Source: Actinoplanes subtropicus (GTDB taxonomy: Bacteria > Actinomycetota > Actinomycetes > Mycobacteriales > Micromonosporaceae). From it: a stretch of DNA of 64,000 nucleotides. The position numbers and the translations under genes were made by a program. A model generated the notes under the pieces. It was not told the DNA's origin. It worked only from the letters and a program-made list of their open reading frames with translations, and did no database searches. Shown in pieces: positions 8,763-53,999 of this stretch (positions are counted from its first letter, which is position 1; the number at the start of each line of letters is the position of its first letter). The stretch is from positions 537,617 through 601,616 of the forward strand of contig NZ_JOJL01000004.1 in assembly GCF_000721705.1 (NCBI RefSeq), written 5' to 3'.

Positions 8763-8870
8763 CTCGTTCAGGACACGCTCACCTTCGGCATGACGACGAT
8801 GATGGTGGGCCGGGCGGCGCGGAGTCACTGGTGCTGGCCACCGGGCCGGCGGTAGGGCTGGCCTCACCCG

Positions 8871-39345: not shown

Positions 39346-40388
39346 AGGATCACCGGCTTTCCGGTACGGGACGATTCGTAGGCGGCGGTGATCACGGCGA
39401 CCGCCTGGCGGTTGGTCTCCAGGTCGACGCGCAGCTCCTCGGTGCCGGCCAGCGCGCCCAGGAAGTTCAGGTACTGCCGGCGGTGGGCGTCGGAGAGCAT
39501 CCCCGGGTTGCTGCTGGCGGTCGGGGCGCCGCCGCCGGAGATCACCCGGTTGGTCCCCATGAAGCGCTCCTCCGCAGCGGAGCCGGCCGGGGTGGCGTGG
39601 AAGAACGCCAGCTCGTCGTTGTCGATCACCGCCGAGCCGCGGTCGCCGTGCACCTGCAGGCGGGCGCTCAGCCCCGGGTACGCCGCGGTGGTCGCGTGCA
39701 GCACGCCGAGCGCGCCGGACTCGAACCGGACCACACCGGTCGCCACGTCCTCCACCTCGATCCGCTCGTGCGCGAGGGTGCCGGTGCAGGCGAACACCTC
39801 GACCGGCCGGCCGAGCGCGGCGATCAGCAGGTCGACCGTGTGCACGCCCTGGTTCATCAGCGCGCCGCCGCCGTCCAGCTCCCAGGTGCCCCGCCAGCCG
39901 CCCGAGTCGTAGTAGCTCTGCCCGCGCCACCAGTCGATCGACGCGATGCCGGAGGTGACCCGTCCGAACTCGCCGGCCGCGATGGCCGCCAGGACCTGCT
40001 CGGTGGACGGGTCGAAGCGGTGCTGGGAGATGACCGTGACCAGCGTGCCGGCCTTCTGCCGGGCGCGGATGATCTCGTCGGTGCGGGCCACGGTCACCTC
40101 GGCCGGCTTCTCGATGATCACGTGCTTGCCGGCCGACAGGGCCTCGATCGCGATCTCGCCGTGCAGGCCGGTCGGCGTGCACACCACCACGACGTCGATC
40201 TCCTCGGCGGCGAGGGCGGCCGTCAGCGAGGGATAGGCGTGCTCGGCGGACAGGGCGGAGGCCTTGTCGATATCGACGTCGGCCACCGCGACCAGGGAAA
40301 GGCGATCGGCCAGCTCACCCATGACCTTGGCGTGGTGCGTGCCGATCACGCCGGCACCGACGAGGGCGAATTTCGGGAGCGTGCTCAC
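39342..40388 (-). CDS. Gfo/Idh/MocA family NAD(P)-dependent sugar dehydrogenase (copy 1)
   Basis: 348 residues. Rossmann start FALVGAGVIGTHHAKVM, conserved EKP motif in HVIIEKPAEVT, and the active-site segment WELDGGGALMNQGVHTVDLL with the catalytic His. Oxidises a sugar or cyclitol hydroxyl, often at C3. GTG start overlaps the upstream stop by four bases. The pair with IolE-like and second TIM-barrel genes suggests sequential oxidation and rearrangement of a sugar derivative. Confidence 0.9.
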   Translation of the reverse strand: MSTLPKFALVGAGVIGTHHAKVMGELADRLSLVAVADVDIDKASALSAEHAYPSLTAALAAEEIDVVVVCTPTGLHGEIAIEALSAGKHVIIEKPAEVTVARTDEIIRARQKAGTLVTVISQHRFDPSTEQVLAAIAAGEFGRVTSGIASIDWWRGQSYYDSGGWRGTWELDGGGALMNQGVHTVDLLIAALGRPVEVFACTGTLAHERIEVEDVATGVVRFESGALGVLHATTAAYPGLSARLQVHGDRGSAVIDNDELAFFHATPAGSAAEERFMGTNRVISGGGAPTASSNPGMLSDAHRRQYLNFLGALAGTEELRVDLETNRQAVAVITAAYESSRTGKPVIL

Positions 40389-41212
40389 GCGTACTCAATC
40401 TCCTCGGTCTTCAACAGGTCGGTGAAAGCCTTCCAGGCCGTACGGAACAGGTCCGGCCCCGAATATCCGCCGGTGGCGTGGCCGAGCGCGAGATGCGGTT
40501 CGAGCGAGAAGAAGCCGTCGAATCCGTCGTGCCGCAGCGCCCGCATGGTCTCGGCCACCTCGCCGTCGCCCTGGCCCGCGGGCACCACCGTGCCATCGGC
40601 CGCCAGAGCGTCCTTGATCTGCACGTATTCGAGGTGCGGCCGCAGTTTCGCGTACCCCTCGGCATAGGGGCGCACGCCGACCTGCACGAAATTCGCCGGG
40701 TCCCAGGCCAGCTTCAGATAGGGCGAGCCGACCGAGCGGATCAGATCGAGACAACGGGCCGGGACGTCGCCGTAGATCTCCTTCTCGTTCTCGTGCAGCA
40801 GGATCAGATCGGCCTCCTCGGCCACCCGGACCAGCGCCCGCATCCGGTCGATCACCTCCGCCCGATGGCCGGCCGGGTCCGCGCCGGGCCGCAGGAAGAA
40901 CGAGAAGATGCGGATGTACGGCGCGTCCAGCTCGTGTGCGACCTCGGCGGCGTGCCGCATGCGCTCCAGATGCGGCCCGAACTCCTCGTCGATGAAGATC
41001 TTCCCGATCGGGGAGCCGATGGAGGACACCTGCAACCCGTAATTCCTGAGCGTTTTCTTCATGGTGGCCAGTTGGTCGGGGGAGAGGTCGAGAATGTTGA
41101 CGTCCCAGGCGCTGCGTACCTCGATGTACTTGAGGCCGAGCCCGCTCGCGACCTCGCACTGCTCGGTGAGATCGGGGGAGATCTCGTCGGCGAATCCGGA
41201 GAGAGTCCACAT
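40385..41212 (-). CDS. xylose-isomerase-like TIM barrel protein (second)
   Basis: 275 residues beginning MWTLSGFADEISPDL, a typical opening in this group. Metal/acid residues sit in LILLHENEKEIYG, LKLAWDPANFVQVG, LEYVQIKDAL and GFFSLEPHL. Sugar isomerase/epimerase fold; exact reaction unknown. The start lies one base beyond the previous stop (TGAAATG), so translation is coupled. An upstream in-frame start would overlap the dehydrogenase gene and is not needed. Confidence 0.87.
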   Translation of the reverse strand: MWTLSGFADEISPDLTEQCEVASGLGLKYIEVRSAWDVNILDLSPDQLATMKKTLRNYGLQVSSIGSPIGKIFIDEEFGPHLERMRHAAEVAHELDAPYIRIFSFFLRPGADPAGHRAEVIDRMRALVRVAEEADLILLHENEKEIYGDVPARCLDLIRSVGSPYLKLAWDPANFVQVGVRPYAEGYAKLRPHLEYVQIKDALAADGTVVPAGQGDGEVAETMRALRHDGFDGFFSLEPHLALGHATGGYSGPDLFRTAWKAFTDLLKTEEIEYA

Positions 41213-41213
41213 T

Positions 41214-42146
41214 TCAGGAGCCTTTTCGGTAGGTCTCGTCAATGATCATCTGGGATTTGAGGGCCTCGGCCGGGGTTATCCAGAACGGTTCCCCCGCCTC
41301 GATCGCGCGATAGAAGTCGGCGATCAGCAATTGGTGCGAGGCGCCCCAGTAATCGCGGCCTTCGCTGTTCGAACGGGACTCGGTGACCACCTCGATCCGG
41401 CCGTCGGCATGGGTGATGGTGAGATCGCCGCGAAGGTGCAGGGTCGCCGAGGAGGTGACGATCTCGATGGTCACCGGGGAGTCGACCGCGTTGGTGACCG
41501 TGGCGAAGACGACGCTGCGGGCGCCGCCGGCGTGTTCGAGCAGCAGGTTCGCGGTGTCCTCGACGTCGGTGCCGGGAAGGTCGGCGATGCGCCCGGCCCA
41601 GCCGGACACCTGCGACACGTCGCCGAGCAGCCACTGCATCAGGTCGATGGTGTGGATAGCCTGATTTATCAGGACACCGCCGCCGCTGCGCTGCACCCGG
41701 CCGCGCCAGGGCCGTTTCGCGTAGTAGGCGGCGTCGCGATGCCAGAAGACGGTGGCGGACCCGCCGCGTACACCCGCAGGCTTTTGATCTTGAAGGAAGG
41801 TAGCGGCGGCCTGAGAGGTGGCGTTGTAGCGATTCTGCAGGCAGACGCCGACCTGAAGATCCGGGAAGCCGGCCAGGGCATCGATCAGGCGCGAGGCCTC
41901 GTCGATCGTGTGCGCGACCGGTTTCTCCAGCAGCACGTGGGCGCCGTGCGCGAGGGCCTCGAGCGCGATCGGCACATGCGTGTCGTGCGGCGTGCAGATG
42001 TGCACCACGTCCGGGCGGAGCGACGAGAGCATCGCCCGGTAATCCGAGGCGGAGTCGCAGGTGCCGACCAGGGAGGCGCCCAGCGCCCGGATCGCGGCGA
42101 CGTGCACGACCGACACGTCGCCGCGGCCGACCAGCAGCACCCTCAC
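41214..42146 (-). CDS. Gfo/Idh/MocA family sugar dehydrogenase (copy 2)
   Basis: 310 residues. Short N-terminus VRVLLVGRGDVSVVHVAAI, EKP motif in HVLLEKPVAHT, and SGGGVLINQAIHTIDLMQWLLG around the catalytic His. Differs from copy 1 in length and central domain, so not a recent duplicate. GTG start overlaps the upstream permease stop (GTGA). Function in the pathway: oxidation or reduction of a sugar hydroxyl/keto group. Confidence 0.9.
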   Translation of the reverse strand: MRVLLVGRGDVSVVHVAAIRALGASLVGTCDSASDYRAMLSSLRPDVVHICTPHDTHVPIALEALAHGAHVLLEKPVAHTIDEASRLIDALAGFPDLQVGVCLQNRYNATSQAAATFLQDQKPAGVRGGSATVFWHRDAAYYAKRPWRGRVQRSGGGVLINQAIHTIDLMQWLLGDVSQVSGWAGRIADLPGTDVEDTANLLLEHAGGARSVVFATVTNAVDSPVTIEIVTSSATLHLRGDLTITHADGRIEVVTESRSNSEGRDYWGASHQLLIADFYRAIEAGEPFWITPAEALKSQMIIDETYRKGS

Positions 42147-43006
42147 TTGATGCCGCCCGCGGTCAGCCCGCCCACCAGATACCGCTGGAAGACCAGGTAG
42201 AGCAGGACCACCGGCGCCGCGCAGACCAGCGCCGCCGCCATCATCTGGGAATACACCGGCAACGCGCCGCCCTCCTGGGAGGCACCGAAGACCTGCAGGG
42301 CGACCGCCGCGGTGTGCGTCTCGGGGCGGGTCAGCACCGAGGCGAACAGCACGTCGTTCCAGCCCAGCAGGAACGCGAAGATCCCGGCGACGACGATGGC
42401 CGGCAGGCTCAGCGGCACGATGATCCGGCGCAGGATGGTGATCGTGGACGCGCCCTCGGTGCGGGCCGCCTCCTCCAACTCGCGCGGCAGCCCGCGCAGG
42501 TAGGTGACCATCACCCAGGTGGAGAACGGCAACGCGAAGGTCAGGTACGCGATGAACAGCCCCCACCGGGTGCCGACCACGGTCAGCCCGAGGTAGTTGC
42601 CCGCGCTGGAGAACAGCACGAACACCGGCAGCAGCATCAGCGTGCCCGGGACGCTCTGCAACCCGACCAGCCCCCGCAGGATCGTCAGCCGACCCTTGAA
42701 ACTGAACCTGACCAGGACGTACGCCGTGGTGGTGCCGAGCAGCGCGGACGCGATCGCGGTCGCCCCGCAGACGATCAGGCTGTTCACGATGCCGGTGGAC
42801 AGGTCCGCGGTGGTCCAGATCTTGTGATAGCTCTCCAGGCTGAACGAACTCGGCCAGAACTCGCCGGAGGCCACGCCCACGTCGCTGTTCAGCGAGGCGA
42901 GCAGGATGTACGAGACCGGCACGAGCACCGCCGCGCACAACAGCACGGTCAGCGTGATCAGCAACGGCCGGGGCAGCAGCCGGGTCGCCTCGGCGTGCGC
43001 GCTCAT
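42143..43006 (-). CDS. carbohydrate ABC transporter permease, MalG type
   Basis: 287 residues, six hydrophobic segments, and the EAA loop YLRGLPRELEEAARTEGASTITILRRIIVPLS typical of CUT1 permeases. C-terminus QRYLVGGLTAGGIK is the family ending. ATG 43006 overlaps the MalF-type stop in ATGA. No ATPase gene is nearby, so a shared MsiK-like ATPase elsewhere is expected. Confidence 0.93.
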   Translation of the reverse strand: MSAHAEATRLLPRPLLITLTVLLCAAVLVPVSYILLASLNSDVGVASGEFWPSSFSLESYHKIWTTADLSTGIVNSLIVCGATAIASALLGTTTAYVLVRFSFKGRLTILRGLVGLQSVPGTLMLLPVFVLFSSAGNYLGLTVVGTRWGLFIAYLTFALPFSTWVMVTYLRGLPRELEEAARTEGASTITILRRIIVPLSLPAIVVAGIFAFLLGWNDVLFASVLTRPETHTAAVALQVFGASQEGGALPVYSQMMAAALVCAAPVVLLYLVFQRYLVGGLTAGGIK

Positions 43007-43935
43007 CTCCGGCCCCCTTCCTCGTGGACGTCCAACTTGACCGCCCGCAGGTAGATGAAGAGCGGAATCAGGATGACGATCAGCGACACCACGGCCATCG
43101 CCGCGCTGAGCCCGAAGCGCAGGCCCTGGAAGCTGGTCACGTAGACCAGCATCGGCATGACGTTGACGTTGTCCGGGGCCGGCGCGCCGAACAGCACGAA
43201 CGGCAGCGTGAAGTTGTTGATGTGGTTGAGCGTGGCGAGCAGGCAGGCCAGCAGCACCGGACCGCGCAGGTACGGCAGGATCACCTTGGTCAGCTTGGGC
43301 CACCAGGTGACGCCGTCGACCGCGGAGGCCTCGTGCACCTCGTGGTCCACCGACTGCAGCGCCGCCAGGGACATCAGGTAGATGAACGGCCAGGCCGCCC
43401 AGATCTCCACCAGGATCAGCGTCCAGTAGCTGCGGCCGCCGCTGAGCCAGAGCGTGTTGTGCTGGCCGAGCAGGCTGTTCACGATGCCGTCCGGCTGCAG
43501 CATGGTCTTCCAGACGGTGCCGACGACGAACGAGGGCAGTACGTACGGGATGAGGAAGACCGCCCGGACCAGCCCCCGCCCGCGGTATTTGTTCTGGGTG
43601 ACGAGCGCCGCGGCGATCCCGATCGGCACCGTCGCGGCGGTGGAGAGCACCGAGAACGACACGCTGATCCAGATCGAGCGCAGCAGCCCGGAGCCGAACG
43701 CCTCGGAGTAGTTGGCGAGGCCGATGAACGGCGCCTCGACCCAGCGGCGCAGCGTGTACTGGTCCAGGTCGATGAAGGAGATCCACAGGGCCAGGGCGAG
43801 CGGGATCAGGATGACCAGGACCATCAGGATCCCGCCGGGCGTGAGGAGCCACAGCGGACGCTGCCGCTCGGTCACGCCCCGTCTTTTTCGCTCCGCCTTG
43901 GTCTCGGTCGGGCGGGCGAGCAGCTCGGTGGCCAT
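43003..43935 (-). CDS. carbohydrate ABC transporter permease, MalF type
   Basis: 310 residues with six hydrophobic segments after a basic cytosolic tail (KAERKRRGVTERQR). EAA loop: SVDHEVHEASAVDGVTWWPKLTKVILPYL. ATG 43935 lies two bases after the SBP stop. Forms the import channel with the MalG-type subunit. Confidence 0.93.
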   Translation of the reverse strand: MATELLARPTETKAERKRRGVTERQRPLWLLTPGGILMVLVILIPLALALWISFIDLDQYTLRRWVEAPFIGLANYSEAFGSGLLRSIWISVSFSVLSTAATVPIGIAAALVTQNKYRGRGLVRAVFLIPYVLPSFVVGTVWKTMLQPDGIVNSLLGQHNTLWLSGGRSYWTLILVEIWAAWPFIYLMSLAALQSVDHEVHEASAVDGVTWWPKLTKVILPYLRGPVLLACLLATLNHINNFTLPFVLFGAPAPDNVNVMPMLVYVTSFQGLRFGLSAAMAVVSLIVILIPLFIYLRAVKLDVHEEGGRR

Positions 43936-43937
43936 GG

Positions 43938-45266
43938 TTACTTGGCCCGGTCCAGGGACGACTGCGCGGTCTTCTGCGCGGTGGCGATCCGGGCGTCGAT
44001 CTGCGCCGGGCTGAGCGAGCCCTTGGCCAGGTCGGGCAGCGACTGCACGGCCACGTTGGTCAGCGCGAGCTGGATGTCGCTCCACGCGCCGGTGAACGGG
44101 GTGGCCACCGACTTCTTCGCCGCCTCGGTCACCGCGGCCAGCGTCGGGTCGGAGGCGAGGGACTGCAGCGCGGAGGCGTTGGCCGGCAGGCTGCCGAACT
44201 GCTTGTAGTAGTCGAGCTGCACGTCCGGGTCGGTGACCAGCTTGACGTACTGGAAGGCCAGGTCCTTGTTCTTGGAGTAGTCGGCGACCAGGAGGTTGTC
44301 GCCGGAGAGGATGCTGGCCGCCTCGACGCCGCCGGCCGGCCGGCTGGTCGCGCCGGGCGGGACGGTCGGCAACAGCGTGTACGCCCACTTGCCCTTGACC
44401 GCGCCCTGGTTGAGGGAGTTGGCCGAGGTCGCCGTGGTCAGCAGGAGATAGCCGGTCTTGCCCTTGGCGAACGCCGCCACGGCCTGCGGGTTGGTCCAGC
44501 CGACCGCGGCCGGGTCGACCACCTTGTCGGTGGTCATCCAGCCGAAGTACGTCTGGTACGCCTTCGACACGGTCGGGTCCTGCAGCTTGGCGGTCTTGCC
44601 GTCGACCAGCGGGTTGCCGGCCTGCACCGACATGCCCCAGACGAACTTCCACGGGTCGTAGTTGTCCTTGTAGGCGATCGCCATGCCGTACTGGTCGCCG
44701 TGGGTCAGCTTCTTGGCCTGCTGGGTCAGCTCGTCCCAGGTGGTGGCCGGCTTGTCGATGCCGGCCGCCTTGAGCAGGTCGGTGTTGTAGGCCATCACGA
44801 ACGGGCGGCTGACCCAGGGGATGCCGACCTGGTTGTTGTCGTCCGGGCCGGAGATGCCGAGGGTGGCCGGGTTGAACGTGTCCTTGCCGCCGATCTTCGT
44901 CCAGTCGTCGGCGCTCATCTTCACGAAGGCGCCGGTCGAGTAGGCGGTCGGGGTCTGGGTGGTGCCGACCGCGTAGACGTCCGGCCCGGTCCCGGACACC
45001 ACCGAGGTCTGTATCTTGGTCAGCTCGTCGTTGGCGGTGGCGAACTGCTCGAACTTGACCGTCGCGCCGGTCTGCGCCTTGAACTTGTCGCTGATCGTCT
45101 TCTGCCAGGCGGCGAACTGCTCGGGGTACTGCGTGTTCGCCCCGATCAGCACGTCGAGGGTCTTGCCGCCCCCGCCGCTGCCGCCACCGTCCCCGCCGCC
45201 GCACGCGGCCAGTGCGGCGGCGAGTACCGTCGCACCGGCCACGGCCATGATCTTCTGGGTACGCAT
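43938..45266 (-). CDS. carbohydrate ABC transporter substrate-binding lipoprotein (CUT1)
   Basis: 442 residues. Lipobox LAACGGG (Cys22) and Gly-rich linker, then a MalE/UgpB-like fold: EFAAWQKTISDKFKAQTG-type opening, GTGPDVYAVGTTQ, GIPWVSRPFVMAYN and a C-terminal helical lobe. ATG 45266 has GGAG eight bases upstream. First gene of an eight-gene operon ending with the LarA-like gene. Promoter region holds an operator and an 18-base palindrome. Confidence 0.93.
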   Translation of the reverse strand: MRTQKIMAVAGATVLAAALAACGGGDGGGSGGGGKTLDVLIGANTQYPEQFAAWQKTISDKFKAQTGATVKFEQFATANDELTKIQTSVVSGTGPDVYAVGTTQTPTAYSTGAFVKMSADDWTKIGGKDTFNPATLGISGPDDNNQVGIPWVSRPFVMAYNTDLLKAAGIDKPATTWDELTQQAKKLTHGDQYGMAIAYKDNYDPWKFVWGMSVQAGNPLVDGKTAKLQDPTVSKAYQTYFGWMTTDKVVDPAAVGWTNPQAVAAFAKGKTGYLLLTTATSANSLNQGAVKGKWAYTLLPTVPPGATSRPAGGVEAASILSGDNLLVADYSKNKDLAFQYVKLVTDPDVQLDYYKQFGSLPANASALQSLASDPTLAAVTEAAKKSVATPFTGAWSDIQLALTNVAVQSLPDLAKGSLSPAQIDARIATAQKTAQSSLDRAK

Positions 45267-45300: not shown

Positions 45301-45318
45301 CAGTGATCCGGATCACTG
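45301..45318. promoter_or_regulatory. 18-base perfect palindrome in SBP leader
   Basis: CAGTGATCCGGATCACTG is fully self-complementary. It lies 34 bases upstream of the SBP start and 22 bases from the composite operator, in the divergent gap with uxaC. Could be an operator for another regulator or an mRNA hairpin in the leader. Confidence 0.6.
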
Positions 45319-45339: not shown

Positions 45340-45362
45340 GGCAACGAGTTGCCAATTGTTGC
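45340..45362 (-). promoter_or_regulatory. composite LacI-type operator pointing into the SBP operon
   Basis: On the minus strand: half-site GCAAC, three bases, then TGGCAACTCGTTGCC. Same layout as the copies before uxaC and larE; the three copies differ only in the spacer and in the centre of the palindrome. Confidence 0.72.
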
Positions 45363-45374
45363 CTCGCGGCCGTG

Positions 45375-45397
45375 GCAACAACTGGCAACCGCTTGCC
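45375..45397 (+). promoter_or_regulatory. composite LacI-type operator pointing into uxaC
   Basis: GCAAC, AAC, then TGGCAACCGCTTGCC; the palindrome has the central CG usual for LacI-family sites. It ends 32 bases before the uxaC ATG. The larE copy has the identical 15-base core and nearly the same distance to its start. Confidence 0.75.
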
Positions 45398-45429
45398 TTG
45401 CGGGTTTTCGGCCGTCGAGGCTCGGGCGC

Positions 45430-46821
45430 ATGGCCGCCCTGACGCTGCACCCCGATCGGCTGCTGCCGGCCGATCCGGGGGTCCGCTCCCTCGCCCGTCG
45501 CCTCTACGAGACCGTCCGCGACCTGCCGATCGTGAGCCCGCACGGGCACGTCGACCCGCGGGTGCTGCTCGACGATCAGCCGTTCGCGGATCCGGCGTCG
45601 TTGTTCCTCCAGCCGGATCACTATGTGACGCGGCTGTTGCACTCGGCGGGGGTTCCGCTGGCGTCGCTGGGGGTGGGGCGGGGGCCGATGCCGCCGGCCG
45701 CCTCCCGGGCCGCGTGGCGGTTGCTGTGTGAGCATTGGGATCTGTTGCGGGGGACGCCGGTGCGTTATTGGCTGTCCTCCTCGTTCGCCGAGGTTTTCGG
45801 GGTGACCTCGCGGCCTTCGGCGGCCAATGCCGACGCGCTTTATGACGAAATTTCCGGGCAACTGGCGCAGCCTAGCCATCGGCCGCGGGCGCTGTTCTCG
45901 CGCTTCGGGATCTCCTTTCTGGCGACGACGGACGACCCGGCGGACGATCTGTCGGCGCATCGGGCCCTGCGGGGGACGTTGCCGGTCGTGCCTACCTTCC
46001 GGCCGGATCGGTACCTCGAGGTGGGGCGGGCCGGTTGGCCGACCTATGTGAAGGAGCTCGGCGGCGACCTCGGGGACTATGCCGGATTTATCACCTCTTT
46101 GGAGGCGCGGAGGCGATTTTTCGTGTCGCAGGGGGCGGTGTCGGCCGATCACGGGCATGCCGACGCTTCGGCTTTGCCGCTCTCCGTGCCGGACGCTTCA
46201 CGGATTTATCGGGCGGCGCTGGCGGGGGAGGTTACGCCGGCCGAGGCGACCGCCTTCCGGCGGCACATGATTTTCGAGATGGCTCGGATGTCGTGCGAGG
46301 ACGGGCTGGTGATGACCCTGCATCCGGGGATCTACCGCAATCATCATCCGGGTACGTTCGATTCCTTCGGGCCGGATACCGGGCACGACATTCCGGTGGG
46401 GGTGGAGTTCACGCGGGCGCTGCAGCCGTTGTTGGCGCGGTTCGGGACCGTTCCCGGGTTCCATCTCGTACTCTTCACCGTCGATGCCACGGTCTACAGC
46501 CGGGAGATTGCGCCGCTTGCCGGGTTCTATCCTTCGGTCTACGCCGGGGCGCCTTGGTGGTTCCTGGACAACCCCTCGGAAATACGCGCCTATCAGCGGT
46601 CAGTTGTCGAAATTTCGGGCTTTTCGCGGATGTCCGGATTTATTGATGACACTCGGGCGTTCTGCTCGATTCCGGCCCGGCATGATATGTCGCGACGATT
46701 GGACGCGGGGTTTCTGGCGACCCTGGTCGCCGAGCACCGTCTCGACGAGGAGGAGGCCGCGGAGACCATCCGGGATCTCGTGGTCACCCAGCCCCGGCGG
46801 GTCTTCAAGATTCCAGGATGA
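45430..46821 (+). CDS. uxaC: uronate (glucuronate/galacturonate) isomerase
   Basis: 463 residues, the usual length. Amidohydrolase-fold isomerase: metal motif IVSPHGHVDPRVLL, then FLATTDDPADDL, MTLHPGIYRNHH and PWWFLDNPSEIRAYQR with FSRMSGFIDDTRAF near the end. Converts D-glucuronate to D-fructuronate, or galacturonate to tagaturonate. Divergent from the SBP operon through a shared regulatory gap. No mannonate dehydratase or fructuronate reductase is in the window. Third codon positions are less GC-biased than in neighbours (about one in five A/T in a sampled stretch). Confidence 0.93.
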   Translation: MAALTLHPDRLLPADPGVRSLARRLYETVRDLPIVSPHGHVDPRVLLDDQPFADPASLFLQPDHYVTRLLHSAGVPLASLGVGRGPMPPAASRAAWRLLCEHWDLLRGTPVRYWLSSSFAEVFGVTSRPSAANADALYDEISGQLAQPSHRPRALFSRFGISFLATTDDPADDLSAHRALRGTLPVVPTFRPDRYLEVGRAGWPTYVKELGGDLGDYAGFITSLEARRRFFVSQGAVSADHGHADASALPLSVPDASRIYRAALAGEVTPAEATAFRRHMIFEMARMSCEDGLVMTLHPGIYRNHHPGTFDSFGPDTGHDIPVGVEFTRALQPLLARFGTVPGFHLVLFTVDATVYSREIAPLAGFYPSVYAGAPWWFLDNPSEIRAYQRSVVEISGFSRMSGFIDDTRAFCSIPARHDMSRRLDAGFLATLVAEHRLDEEEAAETIRDLVVTQPRRVFKIPG

Positions 46822-47062
46822 CCATCAGGGGCCGCTTCGTCGTTGACGCGCGTACGACGCAGCGGGCCGGACCGCACGTTGCACAATTCATGACGAATCG
46901 GACGAGAGCGTGGATCAGGGCGTTTCGCCGACAGCCACTGGCCCGGACGCGCCACGGTGGTCGTGACCCGGCCGCGTCCCTCCGCCCACGCGCAGGCAAT
47001 GGTGATCGCCCTGCAAAACCACGCCGCTCGTCGCCACCACGGCTGACGCCCGGAGCGACGCC

Positions 47063-47518
47063 CTATGAGTCGGCGATATTGCTGAGCAGCACGCAGGCGC
47101 GGGCGATCGCGTTCTGATCCTCGGGGCTGAGTGCTTGCAGGTGCGCGTCCAGCCAGGCATTGCGCTGGATGCGAGCGGCGCGGGCGAGTTCGGCTCCTTC
47201 GGGAGTGGGGCTGAACAGCACCTTTCGGCCATCGTTCGGATCGGCCGTACGGACCGCGTAGCCGGCCGAGGTGAGCCGGTTCACGGTCTGGCTCATGGAC
47301 GCGGGGGCGACGTGGTCGTGTTCGCTGAGCTGGGTCAGGGTCTGTGGGCCGTTCTTGTACAGCCGGGTGAGCACTTCGAGCGCCGTGTCTCCGAGGCTGC
47401 CGTCCGGGCGTTCGCTGCGGAACCGGCGGTAGAGGCGCCCCACCGTTGATCGCACTTGACCGCCGAGCCCGGTCTCGCCGAGGACGCCCGAGCCTTCACC
47501 GGTTGCACCCGTCTCCAT
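47063..47518 (-). CDS. MarR family transcriptional regulator
   Basis: 151 residues. Winged helix: LTQLSEHDHVAPASMSQTVNRLTSAGYA, wing TADPNDGRKVLFSPT. Divergent from an MFS exporter gene, with two matching operator-like sites in the 72-base gap, so autoregulation plus control of the pump is likely. The 241-base stretch between uxaC and this gene shows nothing convincing. Confidence 0.9.
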   Translation of the reverse strand: METGATGEGSGVLGETGLGGQVRSTVGRLYRRFRSERPDGSLGDTALEVLTRLYKNGPQTLTQLSEHDHVAPASMSQTVNRLTSAGYAVRTADPNDGRKVLFSPTPEGAELARAARIQRNAWLDAHLQALSPEDQNAIARACVLLSNIADS

Positions 47519-47524
47519 GGGTCA

Positions 47525-47560
47525 TTAGTGTACCTAAACACAGATATTTAGTATACCTAA
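47525..47560. promoter_or_regulatory. pair of MarR operator-like sites
   Basis: TTAGTGTACCTAA (47525-47537) and TTAGTATACCTAA (47548-47560) differ at one base and are near-palindromic. They are 23 bases apart, about two helical turns, in the marR/MFS divergent gap, and are strikingly AT-rich for this DNA. Confidence 0.75.
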
Positions 47561-47590
47561 GCACCCTGGTAACGCGTCGATCGGAGCGCC

Positions 47591-49006
47591 ATGACAGTAC
47601 GTATCCCCGTCGGCGGGGCGAGCGTGGGTAGAGAGCCGTTCACGTGGCGCTTCACCACCCCGCTGTTCGTCGGATCCGCATTGAACGCGATCAACAGCTC
47701 CATGATCGCCACCGCGCTCGTACCGATTGCGGCCGGCCTGCACGTCTCGGTAGGTCGGACCACGTCCCTGGTGACCGCGCTGTATCTGGCCAGCGCGATC
47801 GCCCAGCCCACGGCGGGGAAGGCCGCCGAGGTCTTCGGTGCCCGCCGGGTCTTCCTGCTCGGGATCGCGCTGGTCCTGCTCGGCGGAGTCCTTGGCGGGG
47901 TGGCGCGGAACCTCGTCGTGCTGCTGGCCGCCCGGGTGGTGATCGGCCTGGGCAGCTCCTGCGCCTACCCGACGGCGATGATGCTCATCCAGCGCCGCGC
48001 CACGGCAGCCGGGATGGCGAAACCACCCGGCGGTGTGCTCGGCGGCCTGCAGATCGCCGGCGTCGCCACCGCCTCGCTGGGCCTGCCCATCGGCGGCGTC
48101 CTGGTCCAGGCGGCCGGCTGGCGGTGGGTGTTCCTCGTCAACGTGCCGGTGGCCCTTGTCGCTCTTGCCGCGGCGCTGATCTGGATTCCGCGCGACGCCG
48201 CGCGGCGGGCGCCGGGAAACGCCCGCGAGGTCATCGCCCGCGTCGATCTGCTCGGCATCATCGGCTTTGCCCTGGCGATGACGGCCCTGCTGGCGTTCCT
48301 GTTCTCGATCCCGGAACCGAACTGGATCATGCTGGCCGCCGCCGTGGTGCTGTTCACCGTCCTGACCCGGTGGGAGCTACGCGCCGGGCACCCGTTCGTC
48401 GACATGCGGCTGCTGGTCCGCAACGGGGCGCTGACCCGGACGTACCTGCGATACGCCCTCGTCGCCCTGTGCGTGTACCTCGTCCTTTACGGCATCACCC
48501 AATGGCTGCAGGCCGGACGCGGGATGTCCGCCCTCGGCACAGGACTGCTCCTGCTGCCGACGAGCGCCGTCTCCGGTGTCGTCGTCGCACTGATCTCGCG
48601 GCGCAACCTGGTTCGCGGCCCGGTCATCGTCGCGGCTGCGGCCAGCCTGGTCGGGTCCGCCGGCGTGCTGCTGCTCTCCTCGGACGCCGCCGTCGTCTGG
48701 ATCGTGCTGATCACCGTGCTCTTCGGCGTCGCGCTCGGCACCGGCGCCAGCGGGAACCAGATCGCCCTCTACACCCAAGCGCCACCCGAGCAGCTGGGTG
48801 TCGCCTCCGGGTTGTTCCGCACCTTCGGCTACGTCGGCTCCATCGCCTCCTCCGCCGTCACCGGCATCGTCTTCCACACCAGCGTGAAAGACAGCGGCGT
48901 CCACTTGATCGCTCTCGTCATGACCGGCGTCAGCATCGCCGCCGTCGCACTGTCCGTCCTCGACCGGGCCCTCCGCGGCCCGGGCCGGCCCACCACCCGA
49001 CCGTAG
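47591..49006 (+). CDS. MFS efflux transporter, DHA2-like
   Basis: 471 residues with about 14 hydrophobic segments. Motifs include INSSMIATALVPIAAGL in helix 1, a motif-A-like KAAEVFGARRVFLLG, RVVIGLGSSCAYP and a motif-C-like ASLGLPIGGVLVQAAGWRWVF. Drug or metabolite export. Divergent from marR; followed 17 bases later by a PEBP gene preceded by GAAGGAGG. Confidence 0.9.
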   Translation: MTVRIPVGGASVGREPFTWRFTTPLFVGSALNAINSSMIATALVPIAAGLHVSVGRTTSLVTALYLASAIAQPTAGKAAEVFGARRVFLLGIALVLLGGVLGGVARNLVVLLAARVVIGLGSSCAYPTAMMLIQRRATAAGMAKPPGGVLGGLQIAGVATASLGLPIGGVLVQAAGWRWVFLVNVPVALVALAAALIWIPRDAARRAPGNAREVIARVDLLGIIGFALAMTALLAFLFSIPEPNWIMLAAAVVLFTVLTRWELRAGHPFVDMRLLVRNGALTRTYLRYALVALCVYLVLYGITQWLQAGRGMSALGTGLLLLPTSAVSGVVVALISRRNLVRGPVIVAAAASLVGSAGVLLLSSDAAVVWIVLITVLFGVALGTGASGNQIALYTQAPPEQLGVASGLFRTFGYVGSIASSAVTGIVFHTSVKDSGVHLIALVMTGVSIAAVALSVLDRALRGPGRPTTRP

Positions 49007-49023
49007 AAGGAGGAACCGACCCC

Positions 49024-49587
49024 ATGCCCAACCCCCTCGGCCGCGCGCTGCGCCATCGACGCGCGGGACACCACACCCTCGTCTGGGCCCACCCCGACCT
49101 GCGGGCCCCGGAAAACTTCGCCCTCACGAGCCCCGCCTTCGGCCAGGGCACCGCAATCCCCGAGCGATACCGCGGCCGGCTCTTCGGCGCCGACATCTCA
49201 CCGGCCCTCGCCTGGACACCACCACCGGCCGGCACCGCCGAACTCGTGCTCATCGTGCAGGATCCCGACGTACCGTTCGGGAAACCCGCCACCCACGCAC
49301 TCACCCTCGGCATCGACCCGGCCCTGCCCGGCATCCCCGAGAACGGCCTCACCCGGCCCGGCTCGATCGACGGACTCAAACACGGAAGAGGCGCCCTCGG
49401 CCACCGCGGCTGGGCCGGCCCCATGCCCATCCCCTCGCACGGTCCGCACTCCTACGTCTTCCAGCTCTTCGCCCTCGACCACCGACCCGAGTTACCCGAG
49501 AAGTTCGCCCTCACCGACGCCCTCCACGCCATGACCGGACACGTCATCGGACGTGCCCGGCTCGACGGCACCTACGAAATCCGGTAG
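49024..49587 (+). CDS. YbhB/YbcL (PEBP, Raf-kinase-inhibitor-like) family protein
   Basis: 187 residues. Family core: ISPALAWTPPPAGTAELVLIVQDPDVPFGKPATHALT, then GPHSYVFQLFALD and the C-terminal helix LHAMTGHVIGRARLDGTY. Binds small anionic ligands; bacterial role unclear. ATG 49024 follows AAGGAGG. Co-transcribed with the MFS gene under MarR control. Confidence 0.88.
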   Translation: MPNPLGRALRHRRAGHHTLVWAHPDLRAPENFALTSPAFGQGTAIPERYRGRLFGADISPALAWTPPPAGTAELVLIVQDPDVPFGKPATHALTLGIDPALPGIPENGLTRPGSIDGLKHGRGALGHRGWAGPMPIPSHGPHSYVFQLFALDHRPELPEKFALTDALHAMTGHVIGRARLDGTYEIR

Positions 49588-49765
49588 CCGCCAAGGCCGC
49601 GATGGCGGGCCTGTACGGCGTGCTCTACGTGGAGGTGGCCCGGCGGCCCGATGGCCACACTTCAGGGCCACCTGGCGATCCCCGTGACCGACGGATGCTT
49701 CCGTGGAATCTCGTGTTCTGAGAACTGGGTGGACCCCGCCGCGGTGTGCGGGGAACAGTCGGGTT

Positions 49766-50350
49766 GTGGAGAACATCGTCACGGTACGTCATCGTTCGGT
49801 GGAGGAGATCAGGGAGCGGCTGCCCCTCGTGCGGCGGTCCCCGCGGGACCTGGGCGCTCTGGCGCTGGCCGTCTGCCGGCCGGCGGTCGACGCCCGCGAG
49901 GTGCTGTCCCACGCCGAGCTCGACCTGGAGACCGGGCTGATCGGCGACGGCTGGAGCCGGCGGGCCGGTTCCCGCACCGACCCGTCGCCGAACCCCGAAC
50001 GGCAGCTGACCGTCATCAACTCCCGGTTCATCGAGCTGATCGCGGGCCCCGACCGGGACGCCTGGGCCCTCGCCGGCGACCAGCTCTACGTCGACCTCGA
50101 CCTGAGCGTCGACGCCCTGCCGACCGGCTCCCGCCTGGCGATCGGCGACCGGGCCGTGATCGAGGTGACCGAGCCCCCGCACAACGGCTGCGCCAAGTTC
50201 GCCGCCCGGTTCGGCCGCGACGCGCACAAAATCGTCTGGACCGAGGAGGGCCAGCGACTCCGCCTGCGCGGCCTCAACGCCCGCGTGATCGTCGGCGCGC
50301 CGATCGCAACGGGCGACGCCGTACGGGTCACGCTCCGGTCGACGCCGTAG
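49766..50350 (+). CDS. MOSC-domain protein
   Basis: 194 residues from GTG 49766; upstream starts lack a ribosome site. MOSC (molybdenum cofactor sulfurase C-terminal) features: LTGLIGDGWS-like opening of the domain, LTVINSRFIELIAG, and the conserved Cys in EPPHNGCAKFAARFG, proposed to carry sulfur. Enzyme-specific role unknown. Ends 23 bases inside the convergent VOC gene. The preceding 178 bases show no gene. Confidence 0.85.
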   Translation: MENIVTVRHRSVEEIRERLPLVRRSPRDLGALALAVCRPAVDAREVLSHAELDLETGLIGDGWSRRAGSRTDPSPNPERQLTVINSRFIELIAGPDRDAWALAGDQLYVDLDLSVDALPTGSRLAIGDRAVIEVTEPPHNGCAKFAARFGRDAHKIVWTEEGQRLRLRGLNARVIVGAPIATGDAVRVTLRSTP

Positions 50351-50714
50351 GGCGTTCCTGGGTCAGCGCCAGGTGGTGGCCGTCCGGATCGCGGAAGAAG
50401 GTCATCCACAGTTCGTGGTCCTCGGTCCGGTGGACCACGTGCGGCTTGTCGACGAATTCGACGCCCGCGTCGGCCAGCCGGAGCTGTTCCGCGTGGATGT
50501 CGTCCACGGCGAAGTACAGCGTGACCTTGCTGGCGAACTCCGGCGGCTCCGGCACCCCGAGGTAGAGCCGCACGTCGCCGCTGGCGAAGAAGGCCATCGG
50601 CTGGCCGGGCACGACGAACAACAAGGGAATGCCGAGCACGTCGCGGTAGAAGGCGACCGACCGGTCGAGGTCCGTGATGCTGACGTGGATCTGGGTGACT
50701 GGCCCGAGTGCCAT
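50328..50714 (-). CDS. VOC family (glyoxalase/bleomycin resistance-like) protein
   Basis: 128 residues from ATG 50714 with GGAG upstream. Two beta-alpha-beta-beta-beta modules: QIHVSITDLDRSVAFYRDVLGIPLLF and VTLYFAVDDIHAEQLRLADAGVEF, ending WMTFFRDPDGHHLALTQE. Metal ligands H/E partly visible. Substrate unknown. Divergent from a marR gene with a palindrome between. Confidence 0.87.
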   Translation of the reverse strand: MALGPVTQIHVSITDLDRSVAFYRDVLGIPLLFVVPGQPMAFFASGDVRLYLGVPEPPEFASKVTLYFAVDDIHAEQLRLADAGVEFVDKPHVVHRTEDHELWMTFFRDPDGHHLALTQERPTASTGA

Positions 50715-50744
50715 GGCTCTCCTATACTTCACCGCGGTTTATTG

Positions 50745-50758
50745 TTCACCTAGGTGAA
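50745..50758. promoter_or_regulatory. 14-base perfect palindrome, probable MarR operator
   Basis: TTCACCTAGGTGAA is self-complementary and centred in the 52-base gap between the divergent VOC and marR genes. A partial half-site TTCACC occurs again at 50728. Confidence 0.72.
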
Positions 50759-50766
50759 GGTTAGTG

Positions 50767-51249
50767 ATGGCTGGTCGCAAGCGTCAATCCCCGCAGCTGC
50801 CGCAGCCGCCGGCGGGGCTGCCCGCCGACGACCGGCATCGCGCCGCGAACGTGCTGCATTCGGCGGCGGTACGGTTGCTGCGCCGGGCCGCGGCCGCCGA
50901 CCGGGGGATGGACCTCGATGGGCCGCGCGCCTCCCTGCTGTCGGTCCTCGTGTTCGGCGGCGCGCAGACGATGAGCCAGCTCGCCGAGCGCGAGCGGGTC
51001 ACCCCGCCGGCGATCACGAAGCTGGTCTCGGCGCTGGAGTCGGCCGGGCTGGCCGCGCGCCGGCCGTCCTCGAGCGACCGGCGGGTGGTGCTGGTGGACG
51101 CCACCGACGCGGGGCGCGATGTGCTGGAGCGTGGGCGGGCCGAGCGCGTACGAGCGGTGGCCCAGCTGCTCGACGGGCTGCCCGCGGCCGACCTGGCGAC
51201 GCTGGAACGCGCGGCTCAGATCATCGGCGAGCGGCTCGCCGCGTCGTAG
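50767..51249 (+). CDS. MarR family transcriptional regulator
   Basis: 160 residues. Helix-turn-helix TMSQLAERERVTPPAITKLVSALESAGLA and wing SSSDRRVVLVDAT. ATG 50767 sits just after the palindrome, with GAAGG upstream. Likely represses itself and the divergent VOC gene. Its 3' end overlaps the convergent larC gene by 34 bases. Confidence 0.9.
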   Translation: MAGRKRQSPQLPQPPAGLPADDRHRAANVLHSAAVRLLRRAAAADRGMDLDGPRASLLSVLVFGGAQTMSQLAERERVTPPAITKLVSALESAGLAARRPSSSDRRVVLVDATDAGRDVLERGRAERVRAVAQLLDGLPAADLATLERAAQIIGERLAAS

Positions 51250-52385
51250 GCGGCGGCCAGGGCCTCGTGGAGGACGACGCGCTCCGGGCGGCCCTGCTCG
51301 CGGGCCAGCGCGGCGACGTCCTCGAACTCGGGCATCACCTGCACCACGACTCCGTCGCGAGAACCGACCTTCACGCGTACGCGGCCTTCGCCGACGGATA
51401 CCTCGACGAACTCGCGATCCAGGGCGACCCGGCCGCGCTCGCTGTGCCGGATGCCGAGGGTGCTGGTGTCCCGGAAGATCCGGTCGCGGGCGGCCGCGGC
51501 GAGGTCCGCCCGGCAGAGGACGCTCAGCGTGTGGGCGGGGCGGCCCTTCTTCATCAGGATCGGGGTGAGCCAGGCGTCGGCGGCGCCCAGGTCGAGGAGG
51601 CCGCTCAGGACGCCGGGCCAGAGCCGGGGATCGAGATCGTCCACGTTGGCCTCGAGCAGGATCAGGGCTTCGCCGGGGCCCGGGGTCTTCGCGCCGACGA
51701 GCACCCGGACGATGTTCGCCCGGCCGGCGGGGTCGCGGCTGCCCGCGCCGGCACCCACCGACTCGAGTCGCATCGCGGGGAGCGGCTCGCATACCTGAGC
51801 GAACGTACGGAGCAGCGCCATGCCGGTCGGGGTGGCGAGCTCGCCGTCGCCGCCGGCAGCCACCTGCCAGCCTCGGGACAGCTCGGCCACCGCGGGAGCG
51901 GGTACCGGGAGACGGCCGTGGCCGGCCCGGACCGTGCCGGCTCCGAGCGCCACCGGGCTCGCCGAGACGGCGGTGATGCCCAGGTCGGCCAGGGCGGCGC
52001 AGCAGCCGACCACGTCGGCGATCGCGTCGAGGGCGCCCACCTCGTGGAAGTGCACCTCGTCGGGGGTGATGCCGTGCACACGGGCCTCGGCCTCGGCGAG
52101 CCGGCCGAAGACCGCGCGGGCGGTGGGCTCGGTGAGCAGGTCCCGGATCTCGTGCCAGTGGCGTTCCGGCGGGTCGGGGTCGAGCAGGTCGATGTCCACC
52201 TTGAGCGCCCGCAGCCCGGCGCGGCGCACCTCATGGGTACGCACCCGGACGGCGTCACCGGCGACCGCGTCGATCGCCGCCCGCACCGCCTGCTCGCTCG
52301 CCCCCGCATCGAGCAGGGCACCGAGCAGCATGTCCCCGGCGATCCCGGCCGAGGCGTCGATCCATGCGTGCCGGCCCTCGCTCAC
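51216..52385 (-). CDS. larC: LarC, nickel insertion enzyme of nickel-pincer cofactor synthesis
   Basis: 389 residues in a single frame; in Lactobacillus the full protein needs a ribosomal frameshift. Opening WIDASAGIAGDMLLGALLDAG and EVHFHEVGALDAIADVVG are hallmark LarC segments, and the C-terminal domain has LLEANVDDLDPRLWPGV and ILMKKGRPAHTLSVL. LarC inserts nickel in a CTP-dependent step to finish the pincer nucleotide. GTG start overlaps the larB stop in GTGA. Last gene of larE-larB-larC. Confidence 0.94.
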   Translation of the reverse strand: MSEGRHAWIDASAGIAGDMLLGALLDAGASEQAVRAAIDAVAGDAVRVRTHEVRRAGLRALKVDIDLLDPDPPERHWHEIRDLLTEPTARAVFGRLAEAEARVHGITPDEVHFHEVGALDAIADVVGCCAALADLGITAVSASPVALGAGTVRAGHGRLPVPAPAVAELSRGWQVAAGGDGELATPTGMALLRTFAQVCEPLPAMRLESVGAGAGSRDPAGRANIVRVLVGAKTPGPGEALILLEANVDDLDPRLWPGVLSGLLDLGAADAWLTPILMKKGRPAHTLSVLCRADLAAAARDRIFRDTSTLGIRHSERGRVALDREFVEVSVGEGRVRVKVGSRDGVVVQVMPEFEDVAALAREQGRPERVVLHEALAAAYDAASRSPMI

Positions 52386-53092
52386 GCTCCCCGCCGCCCT
52401 TCGGGGGAGATCTCGGAGATGGCGGACGGGGCGGCGATCTGGGCCGCCAGGTGGCCCGCGCCGTAGCCGTTGTCGATGTTCACCACGGCCACGCCCGGGG
52501 CGCAGGCGTTGAGCATCGTCAACAGGGCGGCCAGCCCCTCGAAGGCGGCGCCGTACCCCACCGACGTCGGGACGGCGATCACCGGCGCGGAGATCAGGCC
52601 GGCCACCACGCCGGGGAGGGCGCCGTCCATCCCGGCCACCACCACGACCGCTCGCGCCCGGCGCAACAGGTCCAGGTGGGAGAGCACGCGATGGAGCCCG
52701 GCCACGCCCACGTCGACCACCAAGTCCGCGGCTCGGCCCAGGTAGCGGGTGGTCAGCAGGGCCTCCCGGGCGACCGGCAGGTCCGAGGTGCCGGCGGCCA
52801 GGACCACGACCGGCCCGCCGCTCGGCGCCGGCGAAACGGGCGGCCAGGCGAGCAGGCCCGCCGACGGGTCGTGGAAGGCATCGGGCAGGACGTCGAGAAT
52901 CGCGACGGCGTGGGCCGGGGTGGCCCGGGTGAAGAGGGTGACCATGTCGGGCCGCGAGCGCACCGCGGCCGCGATGCCGGCGACCTGCGAAGGGGTCTTG
53001 CCGGCGCAGTAGACGGCCTCGGGATAGCCGCGCCGCCGCGCCCGATCCACATCAAGGTCCGCAAAGGACGAAATATCGGAAATGTCGGTCAC
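52382..53092 (-). CDS. larB: LarB, nicotinic acid adenine dinucleotide carboxylase/hydrolase
   Basis: 236 residues. PurE-like C-terminal domain with AAGTSDLPVAREAL, VVVVAGMDGALPGVVAGL and PTSVGYGAAFEGLAALLTML plus NIDNGYGAG. LarB carboxylates the pyridine ring of NaAD and cleaves the phosphoanhydride, the first step to the pincer cofactor. GTG start overlaps the larE stop in GTGA. Confidence 0.94.
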   Translation of the reverse strand: MTDISDISSFADLDVDRARRRGYPEAVYCAGKTPSQVAGIAAAVRSRPDMVTLFTRATPAHAVAILDVLPDAFHDPSAGLLAWPPVSPAPSGGPVVVLAAGTSDLPVAREALLTTRYLGRAADLVVDVGVAGLHRVLSHLDLLRRARAVVVVAGMDGALPGVVAGLISAPVIAVPTSVGYGAAFEGLAALLTMLNACAPGVAVVNIDNGYGAGHLAAQIAAPSAISEISPEGRRGA

Positions 53093-53943
53093 TCTGCAGC
53101 CTCGCCAATCGCCGCTTGGGTGAAGGCTCCCGATTGGATGCCGGCCAGATCGAGGGTCACATAGCGGAAACCGGCGGCCGTGACCGCCTCGTGGATCCGG
53201 GAGCGCAGCGGCTCGGCGGCGGCCCGGGGCAGGTCGTCCGGCGGCAGTTCCACCCGGGCCACGTCGCCGTGGTGGCGTACCCGCAGATCGGCGAAGCCCA
53301 GGCGGCGGAGCGCGGCCTCGGCCTGCTCGATCTGGCTCAGCTTGCGGGGGAGCACCGCCGAGAAATGCGGGATGCGGGAGGCCAGGCAGGGCGCGGCCGG
53401 CTTGTCGGCGCTGGACAGGGCGAACGAGCGGGCGATCCGGCGCACGTCCGCCTTGGTCAGCCCGGCCGTGGCCAGCGGAGTCAGCACCCCGTGCGCGGTG
53501 GCCGCCCGCGAGCCCGGGCGGTCGTCCCGGCGTACGTCATCGGCATTTTCGCCGTAAGCTATCGCGTCCAGTCCGTGCTCGGCCACGACGGACGCGTCGA
53601 TCCGGGTGAACAGCTCGTCCTTGCAGTGGAAGCAGCGGTCCGGGCCGTTCGCGCGATACTCCGGGCGGTCACCCTCGTGCGTCGCCACCTCGATCAGGGG
53701 CACGCCGATCTGGTCGGCCACCGCGTGGGCGGCGGTGCGCTCGTCGGCGGCCAGGCTGGGGGAGACACCCAGGAGAGCGACGACCCGGCCGGGGCCGAGC
53801 GCCCGGGCCGCCAGCGCCAGCAGCACCGACGAATCGACGCCGCCGGAGAACGCCACCCCCAGGCGCCGCACCCCGGAAAGCTGCCGCGCCACGGCGGCGA
53901 CGGCCTCGTCGGCTTCGGCAGTGGCGAGATCGGAGTCGCTCAT
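53089..53943 (-). CDS. larE: LarE, ATP-dependent sulfur transferase of nickel-pincer cofactor synthesis
   Basis: 284 residues from ATG 53943 (ATG 53952 also possible). PP-loop AFSGGVDSSVLL binds ATP; YGENADDVRRDDRPG follows. Cysteines at ~104 and ~107 (DRCFHCKDE) and ~186 (APCLASRIP): the last corresponds to the sulfur-donor Cys region, and three cysteines suggest the [4Fe-4S] type of LarE, an inference. Adds sulfur to the pyridinium dicarboxylate. First gene of the operon, behind the composite operator. Confidence 0.93.
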   Translation of the reverse strand: MSDSDLATAEADEAVAAVARQLSGVRRLGVAFSGGVDSSVLLALAARALGPGRVVALLGVSPSLAADERTAAHAVADQIGVPLIEVATHEGDRPEYRANGPDRCFHCKDELFTRIDASVVAEHGLDAIAYGENADDVRRDDRPGSRAATAHGVLTPLATAGLTKADVRRIARSFALSSADKPAAPCLASRIPHFSAVLPRKLSQIEQAEAALRRLGFADLRVRHHGDVARVELPPDDLPRAAAEPLRSRIHEAVTAAGFRYVTLDLAGIQSGAFTQAAIGEAAE

Positions 53944-53976
53944 GACGGCCATTGCACGCCGGAAGCCCCGGTGATC

Positions 53977-53999
53977 GGCAAGCGGTTGCCACAAGTTGC
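53977..53999 (-). promoter_or_regulatory. composite LacI-type operator pointing into larE
   Basis: On the minus strand: GCAAC, TTG, then TGGCAACCGCTTGCC. The 15-base core is identical to the uxaC copy, the half-site has the same spacing, and the distance to the start (33 bases from ATG 53943) nearly equals the uxaC distance (32). Confidence 0.78.

Follow-up and report, generated by a model that had tools for sequence, protein, structure and literature searches.

A conserved three-half-site operator probably places nickel-pincer cofactor genes under a LacI-type uronate regulator in Actinoplanes

In a broad survey of the LacI family, 1251 of 1303 regulators have even palindromes as their sites, 1173 with a CG centre, and the ExuR, KdgR, UxaR and UxuR groups are listed as regulators of glucuronate and galacturonate genes (PMC4052901). 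The pectin/galacturonate regulon of Thermotoga maritima UxaR comprises uronate genes, a transporter for uronate and the LarA homologue gntE (PMC3750489). As kinds, LacI control of uronate genes (PMC4052901) and a LarA homologue within a uronate regulon (PMC3750489) are already known. Here, we analysed a 64,000-nucleotide stretch of the Actinoplanes subtropicus genome, henceforth called the window, in which three copies of a 23-base composite operator precede an operon starting with the gene of a sugar ATP-binding cassette (ABC) transporter substrate-binding protein (SBP), the uronate isomerase gene uxaC, and larEBC, the genes for synthesis of the nickel-pincer nucleotide (NPN). To our knowledge, the regulation of NPN synthesis has scarcely been described, lactate-responsive LarR being the one case we can name. 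LarR of the lar operon in Lactiplantibacillus plantarum is a Crp/Fnr-type activator answering to lactate. As in the system proposed here, the substrate controls both NPN genes and a LarA enzyme, but LarR is neither a LacI protein nor linked to sugars.

We consider it likely that LacI-2, a LacI-family protein encoded in the window, represses a glucuronide/uronate regulon including larEBC from operators that overlap the -35 region, and that its inducer is derived from uronate. Like the local sugar regulons in the accessible survey data (PMC4052901), this system has a LacI-type regulator, an even palindrome near the start and local uptake and catabolic operons; it departs from them by the inclusion of larEBC, by a one-sided third half-site, by one TC centre and by paired operators at a near-constant spacing of 12 bp. 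The third half-site and the near-constant spacer are its new features. Thermotoga UxaR differs in being a GntR-family protein with a 17-nt motif; its gene lists, as available, name no NPN-biosynthesis genes, and the word 'nickel' is absent from the main text (PMC3750489). The LarA-like protein of the window resembles GntE/LarA groups 18–20 in being closest to the structure 4nar and in possessing the loop (EV) and W features, as far as these groups are described in the accessible text (PMC7583248, PMC11770544). According to the same text, one GntE group, comprising D-gluconate 2-epimerases, has a uronic-acid gene context, and both papers concern enzymes and name no lar regulator there. No report of NPN genes under a sugar regulator, or of the motif, was found among the matches listed in searches of the open-licence literature.

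The operator consists of GCAAC, three bases and a 15-base core, the full 23-base pattern being GCAACNNNNGGCAACNNNTTGCC. The three copies that the preliminary description had placed in the window were recovered there, each without a mismatch to the consensus, whereas 0.06 matches are expected in the window at up to three mismatches and none of 100 shuffled sequences reached three matches. The copies at uxaC and larE are indeed identical over the core TGGCAACCGCTTGCC and end 32 and 33 bases before the starts (ATG 45430 and ATG 53943), and the SBP copy, 73 bp from its start, deviates at the palindrome centre, where three bases differ. For larE, the gene caller chose the in-frame ATG 53952 as an alternative start. 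The elements depart from a plain CG-centred palindrome: a CG centre is present at uxaC and larE, albeit between imperfect arms (GGCAAC/CTTGCC), the SBP copy is centred on TC, and each copy bears an extra half-site. The GCAAC extension is itself such a half-site, reading GGCAAC at uxaC and SBP and CGCAAC at larE, and the entire layout is GGCAAC-N4-GGCAAC-N3-TTGCC, the first hexamer being CGCAAC at larE. This third half-site lies 10 bases, or about one helical turn, outside the left arm, on the side facing away from the target gene. It is exact in 33 of 40 uxaC, 22 of 25 larE and 22 of 23 SBP upstream regions, many of which had been fetched with a pattern containing it; upstreams obtained in other ways have an exact copy in 11 of 14 cases (2/3, 6/8 and 3/3). 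On the opposite side of the palindrome, the upstreams contain no counterpart of this half-site at fewer than two mismatches.

The SBP and uxaC operators are inverted relative to each other. Among 20 distinct inverted pairs with gaps of 5–60 bp in the fetched loci, 14 are separated by 12 bp and two by 13 bp, the rest by 28, 33, 38 and 55 bp (one each), and the spacer sequence varies; one further SBP/uxaC pair, in genome G026, is 63 bp apart and lies beyond this limit. We interpret the near-constant spacing as a constraint on a shared protein complex; slow drift by insertions and deletions is also possible.

Scanning of the own genome (11.26 Mb in 215 contigs) with GCAACNNNNGGCAACNNNTTGCC returned three exact matches, all in this cluster, one match at one mismatch and six at two, while the reversed pattern gave five matches at up to two mismatches. 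Exact copies are thus confined to the cluster, and the many unrelated matches that the preliminary description had regarded as fatal to its reading did not appear. The 15-base core alone was rejected as a motif, as it yielded 19 matches at up to one mismatch versus 10 for its reversed control, which indicates that the GCAAC extension carries information. The sole one-mismatch match (C12:48408-48430, outside the window) ends 31 bases before a beta-glucuronidase gene (NF007538, 886.5 bits versus a cut-off of 544; best PDB match 3k4a), and the regulon probably extends to this gene. The distance is nearly that at uxaC, and this fourth target suggests glucuronides as the source of the inducer. The surrounding C12 locus (L019) carries two beta-glucuronidase genes (121-1863 and 8463-10241) and additionally a rhamnosidase-like gene and a peptide-type ABC transporter, both recognised by eye only. 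A LacI gene of this locus (C12 LacI) has two related upstream palindromes, TGTCAACTGGTTGCC and TGGCAATCGGTTGCC, without the third half-site.

We traced the operator through 67 genomes of Actinoplanes and names close to it: 28 contain the exact pattern, with 44 occurrences in total, and none contains the reversed control. Loci were read for 29 of the 41 exact matches outside the own genome, and in 28 of these the operator is aimed at uxaC, SBP or larE within 300 bp. A slightly stricter pattern was present in 27 of 354 genomes of the wider family: 26 belong to this genus, and the remaining one, from another genus (G269), has the operator at the same SBP/uxaC pair. For larE, 46 of 48 matched genomes were sorted by hand, two (G020 and G058) being dropped as distant (45–46%). 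An operator with up to three mismatches in 19 positions precedes larE in 22 of 32 genomes with LacI-2 as compared to 1 of 14 without it (p = 2e-4). The suggested co-regulation of larE is not universal, as the operator is missing in 10 of the 32 (G005, G010, G018, G021, G023, G025, G030, G040, G050 and G059). In eight of these ten (not G018 and G040), lacI-2 and larE are divergently oriented and no more than about 0.2 kb apart. A distant larEBC set (LarE 43–46% identical) with other neighbours was seen in stretches L137, L138 and L139 of genomes G057, G020 and G058, respectively, where no operator was found at up to three mismatches. In G057 this is a second larEBC set. The distant set suggests another NPN user.

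Which regulator reads the operator? An orthologue of LacI-2 (at least 50% identity) is encoded in 34 of the 67 genomes, some of which have a second copy at 44–65%; in the others, the best matches reach about 38–44% or are absent. The orthologue is present in 27 of 28 genomes with the exact motif versus 7 of 39 without it (27/34 versus 1/33; Fisher p = 4e-11, uncorrected for phylogeny). Five of these seven (G018, G051, G004, G005 and G021) have sites with one or two mismatches before SBP, uxaC or larE, and in the other two, G030 and G050, the SBP/uxaC upstream lies outside the fetched stretches. In the single motif genome without LacI-2, G014, a LacI-2-type remnant (residues 5–88, 62%) adjoins larE and an exact operator. 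Remnants of this type lie beside larE at L133:4578-4826 (G014, exact operator) and L141:3266-3502 (G036, variant operator); they are natural cases of regulator loss. In G003, G013, G014, G015, G016 and G024, larE and a LacI-type gene diverge from an operator situated between them (exact in four, with one mismatch in G013 and G024), a layout that is the geometry of autoregulation. The G003 gene is a fragment ended by the contig edge, 64% identical to LacI-2 over 71 residues, and the G014 gene is the remnant just described.

The helix-turn-helix (HTH) signature TI.D[VI]A....VA.STVSR is present in LacI-2 and, among the matches listed in the collection scan described below, in 45 of the 46 LacI-type HTHs lying no more than 1.6 kb from an exact operator; it was not found in C12 LacI or in LacI-1, the second LacI protein of the window. 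A variant operator, GGCAAG...TGGCAAGCGATTGCC, was observed at L151:6327-6350 (G021) and L157:17254-17277 (G010), in genomes whose LacI-2-like protein has an altered HTH (TIDDV, RVSFET). It is possible that protein and operator changed together there. G025 has that HTH as well, and the variant site was not found in its stretch L124. Taken together, the motif scan and the co-occurrence in the genus support the proposal that one LacI-family regulator, most likely LacI-2, governs uxaC, the SBP operon and larEBC.

The position of the operator bears on the mode of control. Its right arm is probably the -35 box of a leaderless promoter: at both uxaC and larE, 7 nt separate the putative -10 hexamer from the ATG. 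Among distinct upstreams in which the core is good, 20 of 40 uxaC cases show a -10-like hexamer 17–18 bp after TTGCCN, and 17 of 25 larE cases show T.[GCA]AAT after 17–19 bp, the patterns having been picked after viewing the sequences. ATG or GTG lies 6–7 bases past the -10 in 20 of 20 uxaC and 16 of 17 larE cases. Because the right arm is the probable -35 box, a bound repressor would exclude polymerase. Contrary to the earlier view that the regulator switches the genes on, this geometry, with the right arm on the probable -35 and probably leaderless starts, makes repression relieved by an inducer likelier than activation.

A number of observations weigh against the reading we prefer, some concerning regulator and promoter and others, given further below, the pathway. 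The co-occurrence of LacI-2 and operator is confounded by shared ancestry. Of the 6 listed LacI-type HTHs at distances above 1.6 kb, 4 also have the HTH signature, and the G018 orthologue of LacI-2 is without its strict form. A -10-like hexamer is present in only 20 of 40 uxaC and 17 of 25 larE upstreams. One lone exact operator (L159:8748-8770, G008) has no adjoining regulon gene, the sole exception among the 29. The true regulator might be LacI-1 or the C12 LacI paralogue, or these might share the sites with LacI-2. Consistent with a role of the C12 protein, similar palindromes flank its gene and its locus has the one-mismatch operator; moreover, the operator-adjacent LacI of Curtobacterium finds its best match in the C12 protein (43–52%), and the G003 fragment scores slightly higher to C12 LacI than to LacI-2 (87 versus 74 bits). 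Nonetheless, C12 LacI was rejected as general regulator, because an orthologue (59–100%) exists only in G000 and G013 of the 67 genomes, which leaves 26 of the 28 motif genomes without one; a further 10 genomes pass the E 1e-75 limit, with matches at 42–46% that are nearly all LacI-2-type genes. LacI-1 was likewise rejected: its HTH differs, it has no match of at least 50% in relatives' loci and none of the 40 relatives' stretches L121–L160 has it as best match. With neither protein bearing the HTH signature, we judge either to be an improbable substitute for LacI-2. Even less probable, in our estimation, is that the element is mainly a -35 promoter element, or a set of copies left by old duplications, and that larEBC is not co-regulated with the sugar genes at all. 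The coincidence of the right arm with a probable -35 and the lack of the larE copy in 10 of the 32 genomes combining LacI-2 with larE leave some room for it. However, the arms are constant where the flanking sequences vary from target to target, several actinobacterial families have the element at target genes of the same type, and among larE genomes devoid of LacI-2 it is present in just 1 of 14.

From the operators, their conservation, their linkage to LacI-2 and the gene identities, we infer the following course for regulation by LacI-2. The protein would bind the 23–24-bp composite operator, that is a 14-bp palindrome (GGCAAC-NN-STTGCC) plus the third half-site GGCAAC or CGCAAC, and at uxaC and larE it would block RNA polymerase via the -35 overlap. 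A uronate-derived ligand would free LacI-2 from its operators, and this release would turn on uptake by the SBP operon, beta-glucuronidase from the second locus, uronate isomerase and the LarA-type epimerase. Simultaneously, LarE, LarB and LarC would be co-expressed and supply the NPN required by the epimerase. Nickel-cofactor genes would thus be under a sugar repressor probably because one enzyme of the pathway needs the cofactor. The likely route leads from glucuronide to glucuronate, via UxaC to fructuronate, via a UxuB-type reductase to mannonate and via LarA to gluconate.

The enzymes along this route are documented to different degrees. UxaC is a uronate isomerase (NF002794, 505.2 versus a cut-off of 387 bits; PDB 2q01, E 7e-129). 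LarA falls into its superfamily (PF09861, 72.8 versus 23.3 bits), and PHEV...K...SHW aligns with 4nar, the closest solved chain (E 1e-63), and with LarA chains; we take the conserved histidines and lysine to have their LarA roles. It is likely a hexonate (gluconate/mannonate-type) C2 epimerase, and if of the GntE type it would convert mannonate to gluconate. On the other side of the balance, its longer open reading frame (ORF), on which both LarA scores were obtained, reaches 168.4 bits against a cut-off of 500 for NF052594, 'putative hexonate epimerase', and for this reason we call it GntE-like only; in contrast to group 18, it stays below the curated model cut-off, and its activity is a prediction. 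Several relatives have a mannitol-dehydrogenase-type gene directly 3' of uxaC, with fructuronate/tagaturonate reductase or arabinitol dehydrogenase models nearest and below their cut-offs. None of the own genome's three PF08125 genes adjoins an operator, and the reductase step is therefore not seen in its regulon. UxuA (PF03786) was found in 0 of the 67 genus genomes, while the same search was positive in 5 of 14 control genomes. The notion that Actinoplanes is without mannonate dehydratase is nevertheless weakened, as 61 of the 67 genomes, the own one among them, have a match above the cut-off of NF011654, which we take to be the ManD-type dehydratase model. Consequently, mannonate may not need LarA, and the NPN step may be a branch. 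PF04295, presumably the altronate/galactarate dehydratase family, is present in 27 of the 67 genomes and absent from the own genome. It could also be that LacI-2 binds and co-regulates as proposed while inducer and pathway concern a cyclitol or keto-glycoside, on whose product UxaC acts. The two Gfo/Idh/MocA and two TIM-barrel genes of the SBP operon, which are IolE/IolG-like and all below equivalog cut-offs, would fit this. We regard it as unlikely, though less so than a different regulator, since uxaC is targeted in other families as well as in many motif genomes, and since the operator precedes a beta-glucuronidase(-like) gene both in the own genome and in loci of Frankia, Geodermatophilaceae and Pseudonocardia.

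A scan of 84,980 species genomes returned at least 113 stretches, this genus included. Among the matches listed, a regulon-type gene lies within 250 bp in 67 of 113 stretches; 46 have none, many of them outside the Actinobacteria, and many of the matches in these 46 are probably due to chance. In three records of Georgenia satyanarayanai, LacI (52–53% to LacI-2), operator and LarE (66–67%) follow in that order, and in the two records read further, LarB and genes of a tripartite ATP-independent periplasmic (TRAP) transporter come next. Among the matches listed, the operator precedes uxaC in Actinotalea, Cellulomonas, Occultella, Tessaracoccus and Mobilicoccus loci, and in Curtobacterium it mostly lies between LacI and an SBP gene. 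The operator is flanked by a LacI gene (52–55% to LacI-2) and a beta-glucuronidase-like gene in Frankia, Geodermatophilaceae and Pseudonocardia; the Frankia protein, from the only one of these three groups scored, reached 881 versus 544 bits. At the Actinomadura locus L244, the nearest gene is a LarA, which is not on the side to which the operator points. In Cellulosimicrobium cellulans, a one-mismatch operator stands before a short LarE-like frame (L240:5061-5505, called 95 aa), and a LacI-2-like gene with an exact adjoining operator is nearby; this is possibly a further family with larE under the operator, or a gene fragment. As a tentative extension, which we think possible yet doubtful, a LacI class in several actinobacterial families might read an asymmetric three-half-site operator whose extra half-site makes repression directional. 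The paired SBP/uxaC operators, rigidly spaced, would then form one cooperative complex, and glucuronides would control the NPN pathway in at least the two families to which Actinoplanes and Georgenia belong, glucuronate going via an NPN-dependent C2 epimerase instead of UxuA.

The features of the window are compiled in Table 1. As the gene caller skipped some overlapping genes, for example LacI-2, the locus listings are incomplete annotations. LacI-2 clearly belongs to the LacI family (PF00356, 47.0 versus 27 bits; PF13377, 102 versus 26.5 bits, both on the enclosing ORF), and the LacI-2 and LarA frames run tail to tail on opposite strands with an overlap of 100 bases (37238-37337). SBP has sugar-binding proteins among its PDB matches (best 5ysb, E 3e-26), and the gene order of its operon is repeated in G057, G049 and G008. 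The SBP promoter also contains, past the operator and ahead of the start, the palindrome CAGTGATCCGGATCACTG, which we take to be CRP/GlxR-like. It recurs in six of eight relatives' stretches scanned (L153, L154, L155, L156, L158 and L140; not L149 and L152) and is a possible candidate for a global carbon-control input at the SBP promoter.

Table 1. Operators, putative promoters and genes of the cluster (positions in the window)
Feature	Position	Strand	Remarks
LacI-1, second LacI protein	35206-36225		
LacI-2, LacI-family regulator, 357 aa	36264-37337	+	PF00356 and PF13377/PF00532 over cut-off
LarA-like NPN-dependent epimerase	37238-38485	-	PF09861; last gene of SBP operon
IolE-like TIM barrel	38482-39345	-	gene call; Pfam/NCBIfam on enclosing ORF
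Gfo/Idh/MocA	39342-40388	-	gene call; Pfam/NCBIfam on enclosing ORF
TIM barrel	40385-41212	-	gene call; Pfam/NCBIfam on enclosing ORF
Gfo/Idh/MocA	41214-42140	-	gene call; Pfam/NCBIfam on enclosing ORF
ABC permease, two genes	42143-43006, 43003-43935	-	gene call; Pfam/NCBIfam on enclosing ORFs
SBP, sugar ABC transporter substrate-binding protein	43938-45266	-	gene call; first operon gene
Presumed CRP/GlxR-like palindrome	45301-45318	.	GTGA-N6-TCAC
Composite operator, SBP operon	45340-45362	-	third half-site plus palindrome, centre TC; 0 mismatches
Spacer between inverted SBP and uxaC operators	45363-45374	.	12 bp
Composite operator, uxaC	45375-45397	+	0 mismatches to consensus
Putative uxaC promoter	45393-45422	+	-35 TTGCCT 45393-45398 inside operator, 18-bp spacer, -10 GAGGCT 45417-45422
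uxaC, uronate (glucuronate/galacturonate) isomerase	45430-46821	+	NF002794
larC, nickel insertion	51216-52385	-	PF01969, 417 versus 22 bits, E 1e-124
larB	52382-53092	-	PF00731, 56 versus 30 bits; 4-bp overlap with larE
larE, NPN sulfur transferase	53089-53943	-	TIGR00268, 277 versus 150 bits; first of larEBC
Putative larE promoter	53951-53981	-	-35 TTGCCG 53981-53976, 19-bp spacer, -10 TGCAAT 53956-53951
Composite operator, larEBC	53977-53999	-	0 mismatches to consensus

The substrate of the LarA subgroup to which the enzyme of the window is closest is, in the accessible text, given in print only as a guess, the group 18 proteins being presumed to epimerize 'a hexonate' (PMC7583248). The three-half-site operator represents a departure from the standard LacI palindrome. 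Tying larEBC to glucuronide catabolism, this conserved operator suggests a physiological role for that LarA subgroup.

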